DNA of 29,248 nt from a virus. Below the pieces are notes generated by a model. That model saw only the letters and a program-made list of their open reading frames with translations, was not told the DNA's origin and ran no database searches. The stretch lies in IMG/VR virus record IMGVR_UViG_3300043464_002127, positions 1 through 29,248 of that record; one strand, written 5' to 3'. Made by a program: the position numbers and the translations under genes. Of this stretch, positions 1,875 through 26,029 are shown in pieces (position 1 is the first letter of the stretch; each line of letters starts with the position of its first letter).

Positions 1875-3236
1875 TCAGTTGCCTCCTTGGGTGGTGATGG
1901 CGCGAATTGCATCCTGATAGCTAGCGCCAGGATGCTCGACTTGATAGGCCAATGCGCTGGCGTGGATAGCATTTTCATCGGCTCCAGGGCCTAGAACCCC
2001 AGAGAACGCAAAGGCCTTGCCAGGTTTAGCCTCATGGTTGCCGTCAGGGGCAGGGGCGTAGGGAACATTGGGGGCCCCGTCAGACTGCCGAGCCTGCGCA
2101 ACAGCGGCGAGGCCGGCCTTTTCGGCAGCCAGAACAGCATCACCAGCTTCAACGCCAGTGGTTCTACCATCAGCGGCCAAGCGCTCAATCAGAGCTTCAT
2201 GGCCTGGCATTGACCGGGCGCGAACATCGGCGATCCGCTGGCGTTCGGCGGCGGCGCCTTCGGCTCGCAGTGATGCGACGACCTCGGGGTTGGCCGCCAG
2301 CCATTCCGCAGTGGTCTGGGGCGTGAGTTGATTTTCATCCATAGCAAGACGGGCGGAGGGCTGGGTGGATGGGGCAGAGCGCCCACCAGTGGAGGCGCTA
2401 GGGGTTGCAGTGAGTTGAGCTATCAGCATGTCCAGGCTACTGATTTGGTCCGCAAGGCCCGCATCAATCGCCTGTTGACCGATGAACATTCGCCCATCAG
2501 CCATGTCATCGAGAACACGCTCAACCGATACCCCACGGTTGGCGGCAACATCAGTGACAAACAGCGAGTACAAATAGTCTACTTGATCCTGGATTACTTT
2601 TTGGCCGGTTTCGGTCAGCGGGCCATACTGCGATGCCGCCCGCTTGAACCGGCCAGCCACGATCTCGCTAGTCTTGATCCCCATCGCCTGCTCTCGCTGG
2701 CTCACGTCCACATGGGTCGCTACAACACCAATCGAGCCAACCTGAGCAGTCTCAGAAGCCAGTACCACCAGACCCGTAGCGGAACCAATCCAAACCCCGG
2801 CGCTGGCCATCAAGTCCTGAACCATGGTGGCGATCGGCTTCACACCACGCACCGCCCGCACCGCTGCGGCAGCGGTCTGGGTGCCAGCCACGGTGCCGCC
2901 TGGGGTGTCTGCCAGCAAGATGATGGCCTTGACGGTGGGGTCTGCCGCTGCGGTCTGAACATCACGAGCGAACAGCTCGGTGCTGGTGCCGCCTGACATG
3001 TTGGTCATCAGGTTCATCCGCTGGGCCAACACGCCATGCAGCGGGATCAATGCTGCGCCGTTCCGCACCTCATAGCCCTGCTGCTGCTCAGTCCCAAGTG
3101 GCCGGCCGATCCTGGCCTCTACTGCCGCAATGTCCAGTTCCTCCCCGCGGCTGCGGGCTGCGTAGATCCCCTGAATTTCCTCCAGGCGGTTGGGCAGGAT
3201 CGCCCACGGTGCATTTAGGACATCAAGAACTGTCAT
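1875..3236 (-). CDS. S49-family head maturation protease with C-terminal scaffold region
   Basis: 453 residues. Residues about 60-275 form an SppA/S49-like serine peptidase (lambda gpC type). They include D-T-P-G-G-T near 110-114, the nucleophile context M-A-S-A-G-V-W-I-G-S with Ser145, and a likely catalytic Lys198 in A-G-R-F-K-R-A. This protease processes scaffold and portal during prohead assembly. From about residue 299 (MDENQLTPQTTAEW) the protein becomes Ala/Glu/Gln-rich and helical, as expected for an assembly scaffold; in lambda the scaffold Nu3 is translated from an internal start inside C. An internal ATG at 2342 could do the same here, but no strong ribosome-binding site precedes it. 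Lies between portal and decoration genes. Confidence 0.85.
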   Translation of the reverse strand: MTVLDVLNAPWAILPNRLEEIQGIYAARSRGEELDIAAVEARIGRPLGTEQQQGYEVRNGAALIPLHGVLAQRMNLMTNMSGGTSTELFARDVQTAAADPTVKAIILLADTPGGTVAGTQTAAAAVRAVRGVKPIATMVQDLMASAGVWIGSATGLVVLASETAQVGSIGVVATHVDVSQREQAMGIKTSEIVAGRFKRAASQYGPLTETGQKVIQDQVDYLYSLFVTDVAANRGVSVERVLDDMADGRMFIGQQAIDAGLADQISSLDMLIAQLTATPSASTGGRSAPSTQPSARLAMDENQLTPQTTAEWLAANPEVVASLRAEGAAAERQRIADVRARSMPGHEALIERLAADGRTTGVEAGDAVLAAEKAGLAAVAQARQSDGAPNVPYAPAPDGNHEAKPGKAFAFSGVLGPGADENAIHASALAYQVEHPGASYQDAIRAITTQGGN

Positions 3237-3245
3237 GGGCCCAAT

Positions 3246-4817
3246 CTAATCGGTAGTGCTGTTTGGGTCAGGTGGTGGCACCGCAACCGCAACGGCTGGC
3301 ATCTGCAGACCATCACGCACCCTGGCCGCCATCTCCCTGGCGCTCTGCCGGTGCTTGGTTTCCCAGTCGCCGCCGTCGTAGGCAACAACCTCTTCGGCTC
3401 GGGTGGTAATGCCCTCCTCCATGCGCTTGGCTGCCGCCATGGCCTCCTTCAATGGATCGAGGGCCCCAGGGCCATCGCCACACCAACTCGTCTGGCTCCA
3501 GGCATACCGAATAAAAGGGTCAGCAAAAAACCCTGGCGCCTGGATGATCCCCAGTGCCACGGCATCGGCCAACCACTCCTCATAAACGGGCTGGCATAGC
3601 CTCTGTGCCAGCCAGACGCGCTTGATTTGCCAGGTGCGCCAGGCATCCATCAATGCAGCACGGCTGGCGGAATAGGAAGCGTTGAAGGCTTTGGCCAGCA
3701 CCTCCTTAGGGATCCCTAGGCCCATGCTGCAGATGTTCAGCATCGCCCCAAAAAATGGGTCGAAGTTCGGGTTTGGGCGGCCAGGGGTAGGGCTGACAAT
3801 GCTTTCGCCTGGCATCAGGTTTACTGCTCGACCGCTTTCGATCGTGCCGTCCCAGCCACCAGCGGCGGCCAAAATCTTGGTCCGCTCGTCATCGCTGAAA
3901 ATGGAGGTTTCTTGGAAGGCCTCTGGGTCCATCTGCAAAAACAGCGCCAGCGCTGCGCTGTTCACCGCCGCGTCCACTTCGGCGTCGGTGTACCGGGTTA
4001 GCTGTTTGATTGTGGCAATAATCGGGGCCAGGATCGGCAGCCCACGGGTTTGGCCAGGGCGCTTCATTTCCTTCAGGTGCAAAACGTTGCGGCGGCCAGA
4101 ACTGCCCCGGTACGGGATGCGTTCCCATATGTTGGCGGTTCGAGGGATTAGCCGGCCTGGGTGGTAGCGAGAAACCTGAATCGCCACTGGCTCGCCGTCG
4201 CCGTCACGCTCTACGCCATCAATCAGCGTGGCAGAGTTCATCCGTCCCTCTGGGTTGCTGACCCGGTCAGCCTCAACAAGCTGCATCGTCAGCCGAAACG
4301 GCCAATCCTCGCGGCCCTTATCGCCAAGCAGTACAAATACATCACCGCTGGAATCGTGCGAACGCAACGCCAGCTGCTGCTGCTCATAGAAACACAGCTC
4401 GCCATGGCGATCGGCATACTGTGATTTTGCCCACATTCCAAACCGCCGCTCGGTCATGCTCTGCCATTCGCTGGCCTGTTCATCCGAAAGGCCCAGCTCC
4501 TTGGCATCGATTCGGCTTTGCAGGCTGAGGCCGGTTCCAACAATGTGCGAAACCCTAGTCTCGATCGCCCCAGTCGCTACCGGTGCGGTTCGCTCCAGGT
4601 CCCTGGAAAATGCCCGCAGGTCGGCCAGTTCATACTCGGCCTCACCGTCTGCATCCAGTAGCTGTGGACGCCAGTTGGCAAACCGCGGCGACCGGGCCAT
4701 CCTGCTAGTACCGGTCATGCCGCCAAACGCCATCATCCCGCCATGGCCTAAGCGGTCAAGGTCTGCGGGCAGAGTCTGAGCTACCGGGCGGTTCTTGCTG
4801 TTGCGGCGCTTTGCCAT
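3246..4817 (-). CDS. Portal protein (lambda gpB family)
   Basis: 523-residue portal subunit; the dodecameric ring at one capsid vertex through which DNA is packaged and to which the tail attaches. Family features include A-R-S-P-R-F-A-N-W-R near the start, the W-A-K-S-x-x-A-D-x-x-G region, D-W-P-F-R-L-T-M-Q-L-V-E-A-D-R-V-S-N-P, a long central segment with V-L-H-L-K-E-M-K-R-P-G-Q-T-R-G-L-P-I-L-A-P, and F-N-A-S-Y-S-A-S-R-A-A-L-M-D-A-W, a strong signature of gpB-type portals. The length is close to lambda gpB. The start overlaps the gpW-like stop by one base (TGATG on the minus strand), and the gene is followed by the protease gene after a short gap. Confidence 0.93.
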   Translation of the reverse strand: MAKRRNSKNRPVAQTLPADLDRLGHGGMMAFGGMTGTSRMARSPRFANWRPQLLDADGEAEYELADLRAFSRDLERTAPVATGAIETRVSHIVGTGLSLQSRIDAKELGLSDEQASEWQSMTERRFGMWAKSQYADRHGELCFYEQQQLALRSHDSSGDVFVLLGDKGREDWPFRLTMQLVEADRVSNPEGRMNSATLIDGVERDGDGEPVAIQVSRYHPGRLIPRTANIWERIPYRGSSGRRNVLHLKEMKRPGQTRGLPILAPIIATIKQLTRYTDAEVDAAVNSAALALFLQMDPEAFQETSIFSDDERTKILAAAGGWDGTIESGRAVNLMPGESIVSPTPGRPNPNFDPFFGAMLNICSMGLGIPKEVLAKAFNASYSASRAALMDAWRTWQIKRVWLAQRLCQPVYEEWLADAVALGIIQAPGFFADPFIRYAWSQTSWCGDGPGALDPLKEAMAAAKRMEEGITTRAEEVVAYDGGDWETKHRQSAREMAARVRDGLQMPAVAVAVPPPDPNSTTD

Positions 4818-5062: not shown

Positions 5063-6933
5063 CCAAACCGCCCGCCAGTGCCAAACCTATTAGCCCCTCC
5101 CCCTCCTGCCCCCGGCGCCTGGGTGCCCAGAGTGCGGGCGAGCTGGGCCCACATGGTTCCTGCTGCGTAGTTGCGTTTCACCAGCTCCAACATCCCCAAG
5201 ATGTAGACCTCCAAATCCAACGGCTCGTTTCGGGCCCCCTTCTCATTTCGCCATTCAGATTGCTCAAAACCTCTGCCGTCAATTGTGGTTACAAGTTTCT
5301 CGCAAGTTAAACCCTTAAAGTATTCATCATTTGCATTTTGCCCAAAGTGCATAAATCCCGGCCCTGGTTGCTCAATGTTTAACCTTCCGTAGATAGTTCG
5401 CTTTAACGTGTGCGTGTTTATCATGTAAAGGGTAACTCCCTTTTTTATCTTGCGACCGCGTAAATTTACGTCTTGCTTTGTGCCATCGCCAAGGGTTTTT
5501 GCTTTTTTGTCGCTGCCGCCTTTGACTGCTACCACTCCCTCGTTGACCCTTTGGCGGCAATAGTCATAGACTTCATGCGTAAAGCTTCCCCCAGTGTCAA
5601 CCGCTGTTTTCTGAACGGTCATGGTGCCGCCGCTTGCATGATTAAATACAGTCTTTCGAATTACGTCGATCTGCTTCCATACTTTATCTTCTGCTGGATT
5701 TCCATATACTTTTTCGTGCCATATCAGCCAGCTTTCCTCGCCCACGCCAAAGCCCTTGACCTTGATCTCTAGCCAAGTGTCCTGAACGTCAACCGCAGCC
5801 AGCAACAGCAACACGCCATCTGGACAGAACCCGCTCGGATACGGGTTTGCCGCGGCACGTTGCATCAGGCCATCGGGGCTCACCTTTGCCGTTGCAGGAT
5901 CCTCCCAGGCCTCGGCTGCCCGCTTGTTCACCCAGCCCTTCAGGAGCATGGTGTCATTTTTGGCACGCAAAAATTCATCTCGGATCTTCTCCCAGCTCAA
6001 CCACCCATAGGGGGCATACCAGCCAGGCAGATGGAACCCTGCCGTTTCGCCATCGCCCTTGGCAGTAGCTCCCCACACCCCCCCGGCCAGCATCGCCACC
6101 TTGTGGTGCTGCGCCAGGCGCTCACCGCACGCTGGGCACTTGCACCTAACCTCCCCATCCTTTTTGTCCCAAACCATGTGCTCCCAGCGGATCACCTCGT
6201 TGGCCCCGCAGCAGGGCATGAACGCGGCAAAGCGTCGGCGGTCGCTGCGATTTTCAAACTCCCAGGTGATCCGGCACGCGCCGCGGGTGCCGGGGGTGCT
6301 GGTGATCAGGGTCTTCCTATCGGGAAAATTGGTCTGCCGCGCCTCGGCGTTCTCGATCGGGTCGCCCTTGTCGTCAATCTCCAGGGGCAAGCTTGACGCC
6401 TCATCAACCCATAAGTTCTGGGCCGGCATCCCCTGGGCAGCGCTGCCGCTGTTGCCGCCAATGATCGACAGCAGCATGTCGCCTTGAAACTCCTTCAGGA
6501 ACATGGCGTTGGCCGCGTCCCTGCTCTTGGTGCTGATCTGCTTTGCGGCAACCGCCGGGGTGTCCTTGAACAACGGGTCAAGCCGTTGCCTTACCTGCCG
6601 CTTTGCAAAGCTCTCGGTTGGGAACAGGATCAGAAACGGCGCCGGATCCATGGCAATGGTTCGACCTAGCCAGTTCAAGCCGCATTCAGTTTTGGCCCCT
6701 GACTGGCTGCCAAAGATCAAGATCACGCGCCTGATCTTCTTCTCCCGTGGGCTCAACAGGTCCATGGGCTCCCGCAGAAACGGAACGCGATCGGTTCGCC
6801 ACTGCCCAGGCTCTGAGCTGCTGCGTCTGGTCAGCTGCCGCTCGGCGTCGGCCCACTCGCTGACACTGAGATGCAGCGGCGGTTGAATGGCCTCAATAAA
6901 GGCATCCTCGTAAATCTGGCCGCCGTCAGGCAT
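5059..6933 (-). CDS. terL: Terminase large subunit (GpA family)
   Basis: 624 residues from the chosen start MPDGGQIYEDAF; a further upstream in-frame start at 6990 would extend deeply into terS, so 6933 is preferred (8-base overlap with terS). ATPase motor: Walker A-like G-S-Q-S-G-A-K-T at about 75-82, Walker B L-W-V-D-E at about 174-178, and coupling motif S-T-P-G-T at about 212-216. A zinc-ribbon follows (C-C-G ... C-x-C-P-A-C-G, about 241-270), typical of lambda gpA relatives. The nuclease domain has acidic residues in A-A-V-D-V-Q-D (about 379-385), A-V-D-T-G-G (about 444-449) and N-E-P-L-D-L-E (about 569-575). It cuts concatemers and pumps DNA into the prohead. The DNA for the nuclease half (roughly 5160-5780) is AT-richer than the ATPase half, suggesting internal mosaicism. 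Confidence 0.95.
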   Translation of the reverse strand: MPDGGQIYEDAFIEAIQPPLHLSVSEWADAERQLTRRSSSEPGQWRTDRVPFLREPMDLLSPREKKIRRVILIFGSQSGAKTECGLNWLGRTIAMDPAPFLILFPTESFAKRQVRQRLDPLFKDTPAVAAKQISTKSRDAANAMFLKEFQGDMLLSIIGGNSGSAAQGMPAQNLWVDEASSLPLEIDDKGDPIENAEARQTNFPDRKTLITSTPGTRGACRITWEFENRSDRRRFAAFMPCCGANEVIRWEHMVWDKKDGEVRCKCPACGERLAQHHKVAMLAGGVWGATAKGDGETAGFHLPGWYAPYGWLSWEKIRDEFLRAKNDTMLLKGWVNKRAAEAWEDPATAKVSPDGLMQRAAANPYPSGFCPDGVLLLLAAVDVQDTWLEIKVKGFGVGEESWLIWHEKVYGNPAEDKVWKQIDVIRKTVFNHASGGTMTVQKTAVDTGGSFTHEVYDYCRQRVNEGVVAVKGGSDKKAKTLGDGTKQDVNLRGRKIKKGVTLYMINTHTLKRTIYGRLNIEQPGPGFMHFGQNANDEYFKGLTCEKLVTTIDGRGFEQSEWRNEKGARNEPLDLEVYILGMLELVKRNYAAGTMWAQLARTLGTQAPGAGGGGANRFGTGGRFG

Positions 6934-23309: not shown

Positions 23310-23767
23310 TTAATTTAAGCATCTGCACCCTCACCCCCTGGCTGACTCCCTGGCGAACGATCCGCCTGCTTGAGGTGGAGAATCAGCAACTGCGAGAGCA
23401 GGCCGTTCTAGGGGCCGCGATCAATCAAGAGTTGTCAATTCTGGCGGAATCAAGGCGGTTAAAAATTGAAGCCCTAGCTGGCCCGGCCTATCGCCTCCGG
23501 AAATGCCCCACACACGGGCAGCAACCACCTAACGCCTGGGGCTGCCCAGAGTGCGTGCGGGAACTGCGAGGGGAACTGGCGACAACTAGGGAGGCGCTGC
23601 GGCGGTTGTCGCAATGGGGCGGACGGCCCTTTGCCAAGGGTTGGGACGCAGAAGTTGCCTTTTGCATTGCAGATTGGATCCTTTCAGGCATGACCGGACC
23701 CCTGCCACCCCTTCCCGATCACATAGCAAAAAACGAACAACCCGCCACCACCGAGGATCAACCATGA
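23306..23767 (+). CDS. Protein with coiled-coil and Cys/His zinc motif (153 aa)
   Basis: A short coiled coil near residues 19-55 (L-L-E-V-E-N-Q-Q-L-R-E-Q-A), then C-P-T-H-G-Q-Q-P-P-N-A-W-G-C-P-E-C-V-R-E-L-R around residues 68-88, a C-x2-H/C-x2-C zinc ribbon of a kind I recall from cyanobacterial phage and plasmid proteins. A later segment (W-D-A-E-V-A-F-C-I-A-D-W-I-L) is helical. Stop overlaps the start of the variable-region gene as ATGA. Function unknown. Confidence 0.5.
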   Translation: MINLSICTLTPWLTPWRTIRLLEVENQQLREQAVLGAAINQELSILAESRRLKIEALAGPAYRLRKCPTHGQQPPNAWGCPECVRELRGELATTREALRRLSQWGGRPFAKGWDAEVAFCIADWILSGMTGPLPPLPDHIAKNEQPATTEDQP

Positions 23768-24801
23768 CCACTTTTGATTCCAGTCAAGCCGGCTTTGAGT
23801 TTGCTGTGCGGTTTGTCCGCTCTCAAAACGACCAGGCCCTATTCGCTAGTGCCACAGTCGCATTAGCCGAGCTGACCCGGATTGACGCCGACCATCAGCC
23901 CCCAGCAGCTGAAGCAGCTAAACCGACAGCAGACCTAATCCCGCTGGCGTTTATTCCTCCTGGCAGCTTCTTGATGGGTTCCCCCGAGCATGAGCCCCAC
24001 CGATCAAAAACTGAAGGCCCCCAGCACGAAGTAACACTGGCCGCCTTCTGGATGGCCAAGACACCGATTACCCAGGCACAGTGGCGGGAGGTGGCAGGTT
24101 GGCCACGGGTCGAACGCGACCTGGATCCCGATCCTTCGCGCTTCAAGGGCGTCAATCGCCCAGTGGAGCAGGTGAGCTGGCTAGATGCAATGGAATTTTG
24201 CTATCGCCTCAGCCAACGCACCGGCAAGAACTACACCCTCCCCAGTGAAGCCCAGTGGGAGTACGCCTGCCGCGCTGGCACTACCACACCGTTTCATTTC
24301 GGGGCCACGCTGACGCCGGAGCTGGCCAACTACGACGGCAATTACGTTTATGGAAACGGCCCCAAGGGCACCTACCGCGAGCAGACCACCGATGTAGCCA
24401 GCTTCCCTGCCAATGCCTGGGGCCTGCATGACATGCACGGCAATGTCTGGGAGTGGTGCCTCGATAAATGGCACGACAGCTACGAGGGGGCGCCGACGGA
24501 TGGCAATGCCTGGATGGAGGGCGACAGCCTGGGGGAGTCGCCAGCCGCCTGCTGCGCGGCGGGTCGTGGCTCGGCCACCCCCCGAGCTGCCGTTCGGCCT
24601 ACCGCAACGACGTCCACCCGGACTTCCGCGTCGACATCTTCGGTTTCCGCGTCTGTTGCCTCTGATGCCAGCCGCCTGCTGCGCGGCGGGTCGTGGGACG
24701 TCCTCCCCAGGGGCTGCCGCTCGGCTTGCCGCAACAACGACCGCCCGGACAACCGCCGCAGCCTCATCGGTTTCCGCGTCTGTTGCCTCCCCCAGGACTA
24801 A
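23764..24801 (+). CDS. FGE/C-type-lectin-fold protein with tandem DGR-type variable repeats
   Basis: 345 residues as given. An N-terminal helical segment (1 to about 58) precedes an FGE-sulfatase/C-lectin-type domain: L-I-P-L-A-F-I-P-P-G-S-F-L-M-G-S-P (about 58-74), Y-T-L-P-S-E-A-Q-W-E-Y-A-C-R-A-G-T, and L-H-D-M-H-G-N-V-W-E-W-C (about 221-233). This is the fold of many diversity-generating-retroelement targets. The expected variable end appears twice: 24541-24662, read here out of frame, and 24668-24789, read in frame as R-L-L-R-G-G-S-W ... C-R-S-A-C-R-N-N ... G-F-R-V-C-C-L (residues 303-345). Residues 259-302 are therefore Ala/Ser/Thr-rich frame-shifted sequence. The paired Cys of true FGE is missing, so a ligand-binding role is more likely than catalysis. 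It sits in an operon of recombination and nucleotide genes, not tail genes. Confidence 0.85.
   Translation: MTTFDSSQAGFEFAVRFVRSQNDQALFASATVALAELTRIDADHQPPAAEAAKPTADLIPLAFIPPGSFLMGSPEHEPHRSKTEGPQHEVTLAAFWMAKTPITQAQWREVAGWPRVERDLDPDPSRFKGVNRPVEQVSWLDAMEFCYRLSQRTGKNYTLPSEAQWEYACRAGTTTPFHFGATLTPELANYDGNYVYGNGPKGTYREQTTDVASFPANAWGLHDMHGNVWEWCLDKWHDSYEGAPTDGNAWMEGDSLGESPAACCAAGRGSATPRAAVRPTATTSTRTSASTSSVSASVASDASRLLRGGSWDVLPRGCRSACRNNDRPDNRRSLIGFRVCCLPQD
24541..24662 (+). repeat. Variable repeat copy 1 (DGR-type), out of frame with the gene body
   Basis: 122 bases; in its own frame it encodes R-L-L-R-G-G-S-W-L-G-H-P-P-S-C-R-S-A-Y-R then N-D-V-H-P-D-F-R-V-D-I-F-G-F-R-V-C-C-L, followed at once by TGA. 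The first 29 and last 23 bases are identical to copy 2; differences are concentrated in NNC codons. It would continue the FGE domain if one base were inserted, or one base slipped back, at the G5 run 24531-24535. Confidence 0.8.
24668..24789 (+). repeat. Variable repeat copy 2 (DGR-type), in frame with the gene body
   Basis: 122 bases starting 127 bases after copy 1. It encodes R-L-L-R-G-G-S-W-D-V-L-P-R-G-C-R-S-A-C-R then N-N-D-R-P-D-N-R-R-S-L-I-G-F-R-V-C-C-L, followed by P-Q-D and stop. By my count 21 mismatches to copy 1, 19 of them at codon positions 1 or 2. Neither copy has A at all differing positions, so neither is the template repeat. Confidence 0.8.
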
Positions 24802-24847
24802 TTCTTTAGCCTTTTACCCTTTAATTCTTTATACTTGGCTGTTGATT

Positions 24848-26029
24848 ATGAGCTTATTTCCACTTGCAACACAAACCTTAGCCTGGCTCAAACATGCCGC
24901 AGATAGCGGCCAGTGTGAGCCCCTGGCCCTGCTGCACCTGATCGCCCGCGCCGATGCCGGTGATCGAGATGTTGCAAAGTTTCTAGACCACTACTCTAGG
25001 TTCCTGGGCAGCTACTCCAAAACCATCGCCGCGCTCTGCCGCCGGCTGGAGGTGCTGGAGCGTGTGGCTGGGTTGCGTCACCCGGTTGAGGGTGATGCCA
25101 CGCAGTCCGACTCAGTTGTTGACGCCGTTCTGCAGGCCAAGCTAGGAGGGAGGGGGCAGGAACCGAGCGTTGCCGATGTTGATGAGCTTTGCGCCGAGTT
25201 TGGCTTTCACTATGCCGACCTGGACAGCCTAGAAATGTTGCGCGACATGATCGCCGCCGCTCTCGCTCGCTGGGCGCATGCCTCTGCAGCAGCTCCAGAG
25301 CCTAGGGAAAACCCCGCCACCCCGTCAGCGCCAGAGACGCCCGCCGAAGCCCTCGCCGTCCGCCCGCTGTTGGAGAAGGTGGCCGCAATGGCCAACAACA
25401 TTGGCGCCCACACCGTGAACGAGATTGCAGCTATCAGCAGCCGCGCTGAGGCCTGGCTAAGGGACAATCCACCAGGGGCCCGCTCCTGCGTCGAATCCGC
25501 TACGCCAGCGCGGGTGCCTGGGGATGTGGCAACAGTCGCCCAGTGGCTACAGGATCACGCTCTCGAGTGCCGCAAGCTGGGCCGAAACGACTGGGCCGAG
25601 CAATCCATCCGCGCCGCCGTCCTGATCCAGCGCCTGGCATTCCCTGCCTACTTGGTGGTCGGTCGCCCGCCTGAGGGGTTTTCAGATCTGCTGGCCAAGT
25701 TGGAGCCGGGCGAGGTTCAGATTTGCAGCACCGGGGTCAGCATCGAACCGCTGGGGGATGCGCCTGGCCCCACATTCCAAGACGCCATCCGCCTGGCCGA
25801 GCTTGACGACCAACGCCGCGAGGCGGTCCACCAGGCCGTAGCAGAGGCACTGGGCAGCGGGGCCTACGACTGCACGCGCGTATGGAGCGCTTGGCAGGTT
25901 GGAACGATGGGCAAAGACGATTTCTGTTTGCTGGCCGAAAACCCCGACCGCGTGGCCGAGATTGCCGATGCGGCTATTGAAGCAATTCGTGCCATCCCAG
26001 CGCCTCAGGCTGGGGAGGTGGAGGGGTGA
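24848..26029 (+). CDS. Multidomain helical protein of unknown function (393 aa)
   Basis: From MSLFPLATQTLAWLKHAADS. At least three helical modules: residues 1-80; a D-V-D-E-L-C-A-E-F-G-F-H-Y-A-D-L-D unit near 116-135; and a C-terminal part with V-A-T-V-A-Q-W-L-Q-D-H-A-L-E and then Y-D-C-T-R-V-W-S-A-W-Q-V-G-T-M-G-K-D-D-F. The latter looks like a C-terminal module I recall from short unnamed phage and cyanobacterial proteins. A Pro/Ala/Glu linker lies near 150-175. The frame is open upstream through the variable repeats, but 24848 is the first start after them and the only sensible one. No function can be assigned. Confidence 0.65.
   Translation: MSLFPLATQTLAWLKHAADSGQCEPLALLHLIARADAGDRDVAKFLDHYSRFLGSYSKTIAALCRRLEVLERVAGLRHPVEGDATQSDSVVDAVLQAKLGGRGQEPSVADVDELCAEFGFHYADLDSLEMLRDMIAAALARWAHASAAAPEPRENPATPSAPETPAEALAVRPLLEKVAAMANNIGAHTVNEIAAISSRAEAWLRDNPPGARSCVESATPARVPGDVATVAQWLQDHALECRKLGRNDWAEQSIRAAVLIQRLAFPAYLVVGRPPEGFSDLLAKLEPGEVQICSTGVSIEPLGDAPGPTFQDAIRLAELDDQRREAVHQAVAEALGSGAYDCTRVWSAWQVGTMGKDDFCLLAENPDRVAEIADAAIEAIRAIPAPQAGEVEG

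Follow-up and report, generated by a model that had tools for sequence, protein, structure and literature searches.

Tandem variable repeats of a diversity-generating retroelement in different frames of a phage FGE-fold gene and their probable selection by -1 ribosomal frameshifting

The window analyzed here (the whole 29,248-nucleotide stretch of the IMG/VR virus record IMGVR_UViG_3300043464_002127, from a freshwater phage of small cyanobacteria) contains a gene for a predicted binding protein of the formylglycine-generating enzyme (FGE)/C-lectin fold, in which two tandem copies of a repeat are, judged from their sequence, variable repeats (VR1 and VR2) of a diversity-generating retroelement (DGR), either of which could supply the variable C-terminal segment. 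The best explanation of this layout, and in our view a probable one, is that -1 ribosomal frameshifting selects between a VR1 and a VR2 C-terminus. With the efficiency that we infer, most ribosomes would remain in frame 0, translate VR1 out of frame into a disordered linker rich in Ala, Pro, Ser, and Thr and end with VR2, and some would slip by -1 at positions 24531–24537, read VR1 in its own frame and stop directly after it. The slip would be aided by a GGAGG motif upstream and perhaps also by a GC-rich hairpin downstream. One gene would give two proteins with a common core and different binding surfaces, each separately mutable, as adenine-mutagenised cDNA from an AAC-rich template would overwrite both VRs, the cyanobacterial host being the most likely source of the reverse transcriptase (RT) and of Avd. 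This explanation is preferred mainly because of the phase, the exclusivity and the replacement of a slippery heptamer, and not because of structure.

Results

Tandem repeats in the window gene

The gene and the elements discussed below are as follows:

23764–24801, plus strand: FGE/C-lectin gene in frame 0 (345 aa), consisting of a helix (residues 6–43), the FGE/C-lectin core, the out-of-frame VR1 linker and VR2; PF03781, E = 7.4e-50.
24516–24520, plus strand: Shine-Dalgarno-like GGAGG, 10 nt upstream of the heptamer.
24531–24537, plus strand: slippery heptamer G_GGG_GAG in X_XXY_YYZ phase (first base at codon position 3); relatives have GGGAAAG or AAAAAAG here.
24537–24665, plus strand: end of the predicted -1 frame product, VASRLLRGGSWLGHPPSCRSAYRNDVHPDFRVDIFGFRVCCL, with VR1 in frame; TGA stop at 24663–24665.
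24541–24662, plus strand: VR1; 15/25 template-A sites altered vs. 5/83 non-A sites (Fisher p = 3e-8).
24553–24602 (approximate limits), plus strand: GC-rich hairpin GCGGCGG...CUGCCGC, downstream of the heptamer.
24668–24789, plus strand: VR2, in frame 0, with the TAA stop at 24799–24801; 14/25 template-A sites altered vs. 2/83 non-A sites (Fisher p = 3e-9).

A sequence-only reading of this DNA had described two 122-base copies with 29 (left) and 23 (right) identical bases at their ends and 21 differing sites, of which 19 fall on the first or second codon position, and a recount in the frame that reads SRLLRGGSW...GFRVCC returned the same figures. The C that it saw at the third position of changed codons was likewise present with few exceptions (CCG/AGG, and third-position changes at CGT/CGC and GCC/GCT, two in all), and its assignment of the FGE/C-lectin fold agrees with both the PF03781 match and the structural matches given below. 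The open reading frame that begins with the ATG at 23764 has VR2 in frame and VR1 in the -1 frame; the spacing between the two VRs is 127 nt, i.e., 1 mod 3, and they therefore lie in different frames, as had been noted. That reading was also right to call two adjacent VRs in different frames non-standard, and it missed the slippery heptamer at 24531–24537 and its conservation. The same tandem was found in a dozen further distinct phage genes (spacing 124, 127, or 130, each 1 mod 3), so that neither chance nor assembly error accounts for it.

The downstream gene of the window (24848–26029) occupies the third frame; the open stretch of this frame (24413–26029) extends upstream past VR2, as it also does at most tandem loci. 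In L014, where one VR is left, the FGE body and the downstream gene are fused in frame 0. In L136/L144 the N-terminus of a single-VR FGE protein resembles that of the tandem phages' downstream protein (MSxLPLPxQTLAWLxHAADAG; 24848–26029 in the window), which suggests domain exchange.

DGR template and reverse transcriptase

By searching 300 Cyanobium-family genomes for the constant VR end, a complete DGR consisting of Avd, RT and template was found on a 3-kb contig (G269:C157, loci L156/L161). The RT matched PF00078 (RVT_1, E = 3e-15) and has a YVDD motif, while Avd scored above the cut-off of NF033474. When this template was aligned to the two window copies, the mismatches fell mainly on adenines (15/25 and 14/25 A sites vs. 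5/83 and 2/83 others), and across 20 phage VRs 55% of the A cells were altered vs. 6.4% of the non-A cells (107/1660). The non-A changes were mostly confined to about six columns, which is what a true template closely related to L156 would produce; the exact cognate was not found among the genomes searched, the near-cognate in G269:C157 differing at about these six columns. The earlier proposal that both copies derive from an AAC-rich template is thus borne out by a template that differs mainly at adenines, near-cognate and not exact. Other Cyanobium-family templates fitted the phage VRs more poorly. A template segment in which the variable columns are adenines matched the G269 genome alone among 400, with one mismatch in 41 bases; this pattern was composed after the first template was known and is therefore a consistency check.

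The sequence-only reading had pointed to flanking and host contigs as the place for an RT and a template: both were recovered from the cyanobacterial genome and neither from the phage contig. No RVT_1 was detected in 31 phage records (the window and 30 related contigs, some of them over 50 kb) or in six Microcystis-phage records, and the template repeat was not found inside the ten phage contigs searched for it. Template matches in the viral contig set were two, a VR of L008 and a repeat resembling a template repeat (TR) in L133 (IMG/VR 3300046777_002218, positions 393–656); the latter is a template-like NNN repeat beside a VR-like repeat, on a virus contig without detectable RT. Because no RT occurs in the window or the 30 related contigs, the phage locus is regarded as a remote target and not as a complete DGR, and mutagenesis of the VRs is probably carried out in trans by a host-encoded RT and Avd.

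A DGR encoded by the phage itself, outside the contigs, is the alternative to supply by the host, and we regard it as rather improbable. Canonical phage DGRs have their own RT, and the tandem contigs are linear and probably fragments, so that a phage RT could lie beyond their ends and action in trans is put forward as probable. The RT was nevertheless missing from all 31 records, including those over 50 kb, and the best template match was to a cyanobacterial DGR. In addition, the window TerL has its nearest relatives in Synechococcus phages S-CBS3 (60% identity) and S-CBS1 (58%), and since the genomes of these phages measure 33 and 30 kb, respectively, the 29 kb of the window may represent an almost complete genome. 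The six Microcystis-phage genomes, too, have an FGE VR that varies (Ma-LMM01 vs. MaMV strains) but no RT. In these isolated phages the FGE homologues have a single VR, in frame, and lack a slip site, and they serve only as orphan-VR controls; the single VR of Ma-LMM01 differs from that of the MaMV strains (MaMV-DC) at NNC codons. In Ma-LMM01 and MaMV-DC (L177 and L178, about 5628) the FGE gene is annotated as 'kinase' or hypothetical, and these genomes have no RT.

Conservation of the frame layout and of the heptamer

Eleven tandem genes were examined first (the window, L002, L004, L005, L006, two in L008, L009, L010, L011, and L147). In all 11 the FGE body is in frame with VR2, and VR1 is in the -1 frame with a stop within a few codons after it. 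The distance from the heptamer to VR1 is 5, 14, 17, or 20 nt (all 2 mod 3) and that from VR1 to VR2 is 124, 127, or 130 nt (all 1 mod 3). Their heptamers are GGGAAAG, GGGGGAG, or, in L147, AAAAAAG; L147 is the most distant gene (66–72% nucleotide identity to the others) and has altered amino acids at this point (AKK), yet it retains a slippery heptamer. GGGAAAG was also present in further tandem members (L169, L174, L185, and L195/L196). In every Gly-bearing gene the heptamer Gly codon is GGA or GGG, codons that make up 27% of the Gly codons in these genes. Identical sequences were recovered from two metagenomes for each of the pairs L002/L003 and L006/L007, and a comparison between contigs showed L185 and L002 to have 96% identical flanks and the same VR1, with VR2 different at 21 sites.

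As a control, 100 non-redundant FGE genes were used, the first VR being in the -1 frame in 13 and scored as in frame in 87; none had it in the +1 frame. An in-phase slippery heptamer (GGGAAAG, AAAAAAG, or GGGGGAG) precedes VR1 in 13/13 of the -1-frame genes. Some XXXYYYZ heptamer occurs in 10 of the 87 in-frame genes, and XXXAAAG/GGGGGAG in L196 alone, which is also a tandem, the scan having overlooked its mutated first VR (RGGSR); the motif is thus absent from all true single-VR relatives (about 86). The association between heptamer and frame is strong when every XXXYYYZ heptamer is counted (Fisher p = 1.6e-10), in genes that share ancestry, so the counts do not stand for 13 independent origins. 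L136/L144 offer a natural control, with a single in-frame VR, the context kept and the heptamer broken to GAGAAAG.

A frame-independent tandem scan returned 15 viral stretches with a spacing of 1 mod 3 in all except L172 and the L174 array, in which the repeat units are multiples of three. L172 matched the pattern with a spacing of 131, but its repeat is a different, unrelated one and it was left out of the count. No tandem VRs were found in 400 Cyanobium-family genomes. The two VRs of L019 (8010–8261), at a spacing of 153, share one frame, and this tandem thus differs from the frame-shifted type.

In 11/11 of the genes first examined, exactly 10 nt separate the end of a GGAGG or AGAGG motif from the heptamer that follows it, and the site is weak in L169, L174, and L195; the distance reported for -1 frameshifting is 9–14 nt (PMC5009743). 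The hairpin has an RNAalifold consensus of -24.4 kcal/mol over 12 genes without covariation support, as the VR constants are copied from the template; single-sequence z-scores were modest and the stability is unexceptional for DNA this GC-rich. A_AAA_AAG, G_GGA_AAG, and C_CCA_AAG are highly shift-prone in E. coli (PMC5009743), and GGGGGAA is a widespread site in annotated phage frameshifts, for which G:U re-pairing is given as the explanation (PMC10885494). The GGGGGAG of the window is a near-heptamer, one base off GGGGGAA and of the same five-two type; a literature search for GGGGGAG as a shift site returned nothing, and its published support is weaker than that of GGGAAAG.

Arrays and changes in unit number

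In L174 (IMG/VR 3300020197_000087) seven VRs follow one FGE core (2594–3700). Five GGGAAAG sites, at 2677, 2827, 2971, 3115, and 3265, are all in one phase, and each is followed by a -1-frame VR and soon after by a TGA. In frame 0 these five VRs are read through as linker and the sixth is in frame, while the seventh may belong to a TGATATG-coupled mini-ORF. The second and third VRs look identical by eye, which means that units are duplicated. Two metagenomes yielded what is apparently one phage as L195 and L196, with three and two VR units, respectively, and an added unit changes which VR sits in frame 0. Very short ORFs, each a lone FGE VR segment and several with their own ribosome-binding-like sequence and ATG, were seen in L020 (IMG/VR 3300033571_015173, 5720–6500) and in L174 (1938 and 3537), where use as a split protein is possible.

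Possible translation of VR1

AAC template codons become NNC in the VR frame and NCN (only Ala, Pro, Ser, or Thr) in the linker frame, so that neither frame gains a stop through adenine mutagenesis of AAC and the linker is uninterruptible by it. An alternative that we consider unlikely is that VR1 is never translated in its own frame and is a linker or a silent store that recombines into VR2, the heptamers being a by-product of a conserved Ser-Leu-Gly-Lys/Glu peptide. Frame 0 is indeed open through VR1 in all 11 genes first examined, the copying of the VR constants from a template makes an intact VR1 by itself no sign of use, and the number of units changes (one VR in L014; three and two in L195/L196). 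Against this alternative stand the retention of a slippery heptamer in L147, where the peptide is replaced, the bias of the heptamer Gly codons to GGR, the phase that each interval holds separately, the stop of its own that always follows VR1, and the repetition of the heptamer before each of five VRs in L174.

That translation begins at an internal codon of the -1 frame and yields VR1 as a small protein of its own appears very improbable. ATG or GTG occurs in some -1 leaders (the window, L006, and L008) and stand-alone VR mini-ORFs seem to be present in L174 and L020, but four of 13 genes (L004, L005, L147, and L185) offer no ATG, GTG, or TTG in the interval that separates the -1 stop from VR1, on which ground internal initiation was rejected, and the phased heptamers would be left unexplained. 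Sequencing or assembly error, or a decayed gene, can hardly be credited: VRs are hard to assemble, the members are metagenomic contigs and L195 differs from L196 by one repeat unit, but the phase is constant over a dozen diverged genes that come from different samples, the pairs L002/L003 and L006/L007 each gave one and the same sequence in two metagenomes, and a frameshift sequencing error was excluded by the replication of the layout in diverged contigs. Transcriptional slippage and DNA phase variation were ruled out for GGGAAAG, which has no long homopolymer.

Fold and predicted function

Foldseek matched the structural model to PvdO, FGE and the Treponema denticola variable protein 1 (2y3c). 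In the AlphaFold2 model of the 345-residue product, the pLDDT is > 90 in the core, 40–56 in residues ~251–300 (the VR1 stretch) and 93–98 in VR2, so that the model shows a predicted disordered VR1 region and a VR2 that completes the fold, from an input alignment that included single-VR relatives, which favours this placement of VR2. The out-of-frame VR1 peptides consist of 66–80% Ala, Pro, Ser, and Thr. All curated NCBIfam enzyme models scored far below their cut-offs (PvdO 150.9 bits vs. a cut-off of 500; EgtB and others likewise), and we infer a role in binding and not in catalysis. The protein is homologous to cyanobacterial variable FGE proteins (51–66% identity to those of Cyanobium-like genomes), a class proposed to act as sensors in conflict systems (PMC10907252). 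The gene shares its strand with genes for recombination and nucleotide metabolism; the structural genes are encoded elsewhere, on the opposite strand. As to its putative role, one may guess at a binding protein that disturbs host recognition or at a virion adhesin.

Discussion

DGRs normally provide one variable sequence per target gene per genome. The cyanobacterial DGRs with FGE/C-lectin targets (Vallota-Eastman 2020, PMC7517822) resemble the present system in the TR/VR adenine mutagenesis, in a C-lectin target with the VR near the 3' end of the gene, and in remote variable proteins served from elsewhere in the genome, whereas here the target is phage-borne, with two or more VRs in different frames and a slippery heptamer before VR1. 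Diversification in trans within one genome is already known (PMC7517822, PMC10907252). The tandem C-lectin VR domains of Thiohalocapsa DGR 4/5 (Dore 2024, PMC10907252) likewise combine several variable domains per target with trans-acting DGR components, but they repeat whole domains in one protein, while the phage gene repeats the VR segment only, with frame offsets and a stop for each unit.

Bacterial -1 programmed frameshifting (dnaX, lambda gpG-T, and phage tail assembly genes) shares with these genes the A_AAA_AAG and G_GGA_AAG heptamers, the Shine-Dalgarno-like site 9–14 nt upstream and perhaps a downstream structure; it differs in that the predicted products here end in alternative hypermutated binding segments, with an array form that has serial heptamers. 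The fold is that of the FGE/PvdO family (PF03781; PDB 5hha, 1y1h), and the phage protein scores far below the enzyme-model cut-offs. In the titles and abstracts of the open PMC literature we found no paper in which DGRs and programmed frameshifting are joined as one mechanism, which is weak evidence of novelty.

Somewhat more tentatively than for the choice between VR1 and VR2, we favor a reading in which the choice within an array of retroelement-diversified binding cassettes is made stochastically by frameshifting (most phages having two cassettes, and L174 seven together with five slip sites in series), with the host DGR working in trans. If so, each phage genome would produce a mixture of binding proteins from one mRNA, and the unused cassettes would be linkers that mutagenesis cannot interrupt. 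Frameshift-selected tandem VRs would join two mechanisms, DGR and programmed frameshifting, and one genome could present a number of hypervariable binders in fixed proportions and preserve one of them during the overwriting of another. The phages would exploit the mutator of the host, possibly to counter the sensors that the host itself varies by DGR.
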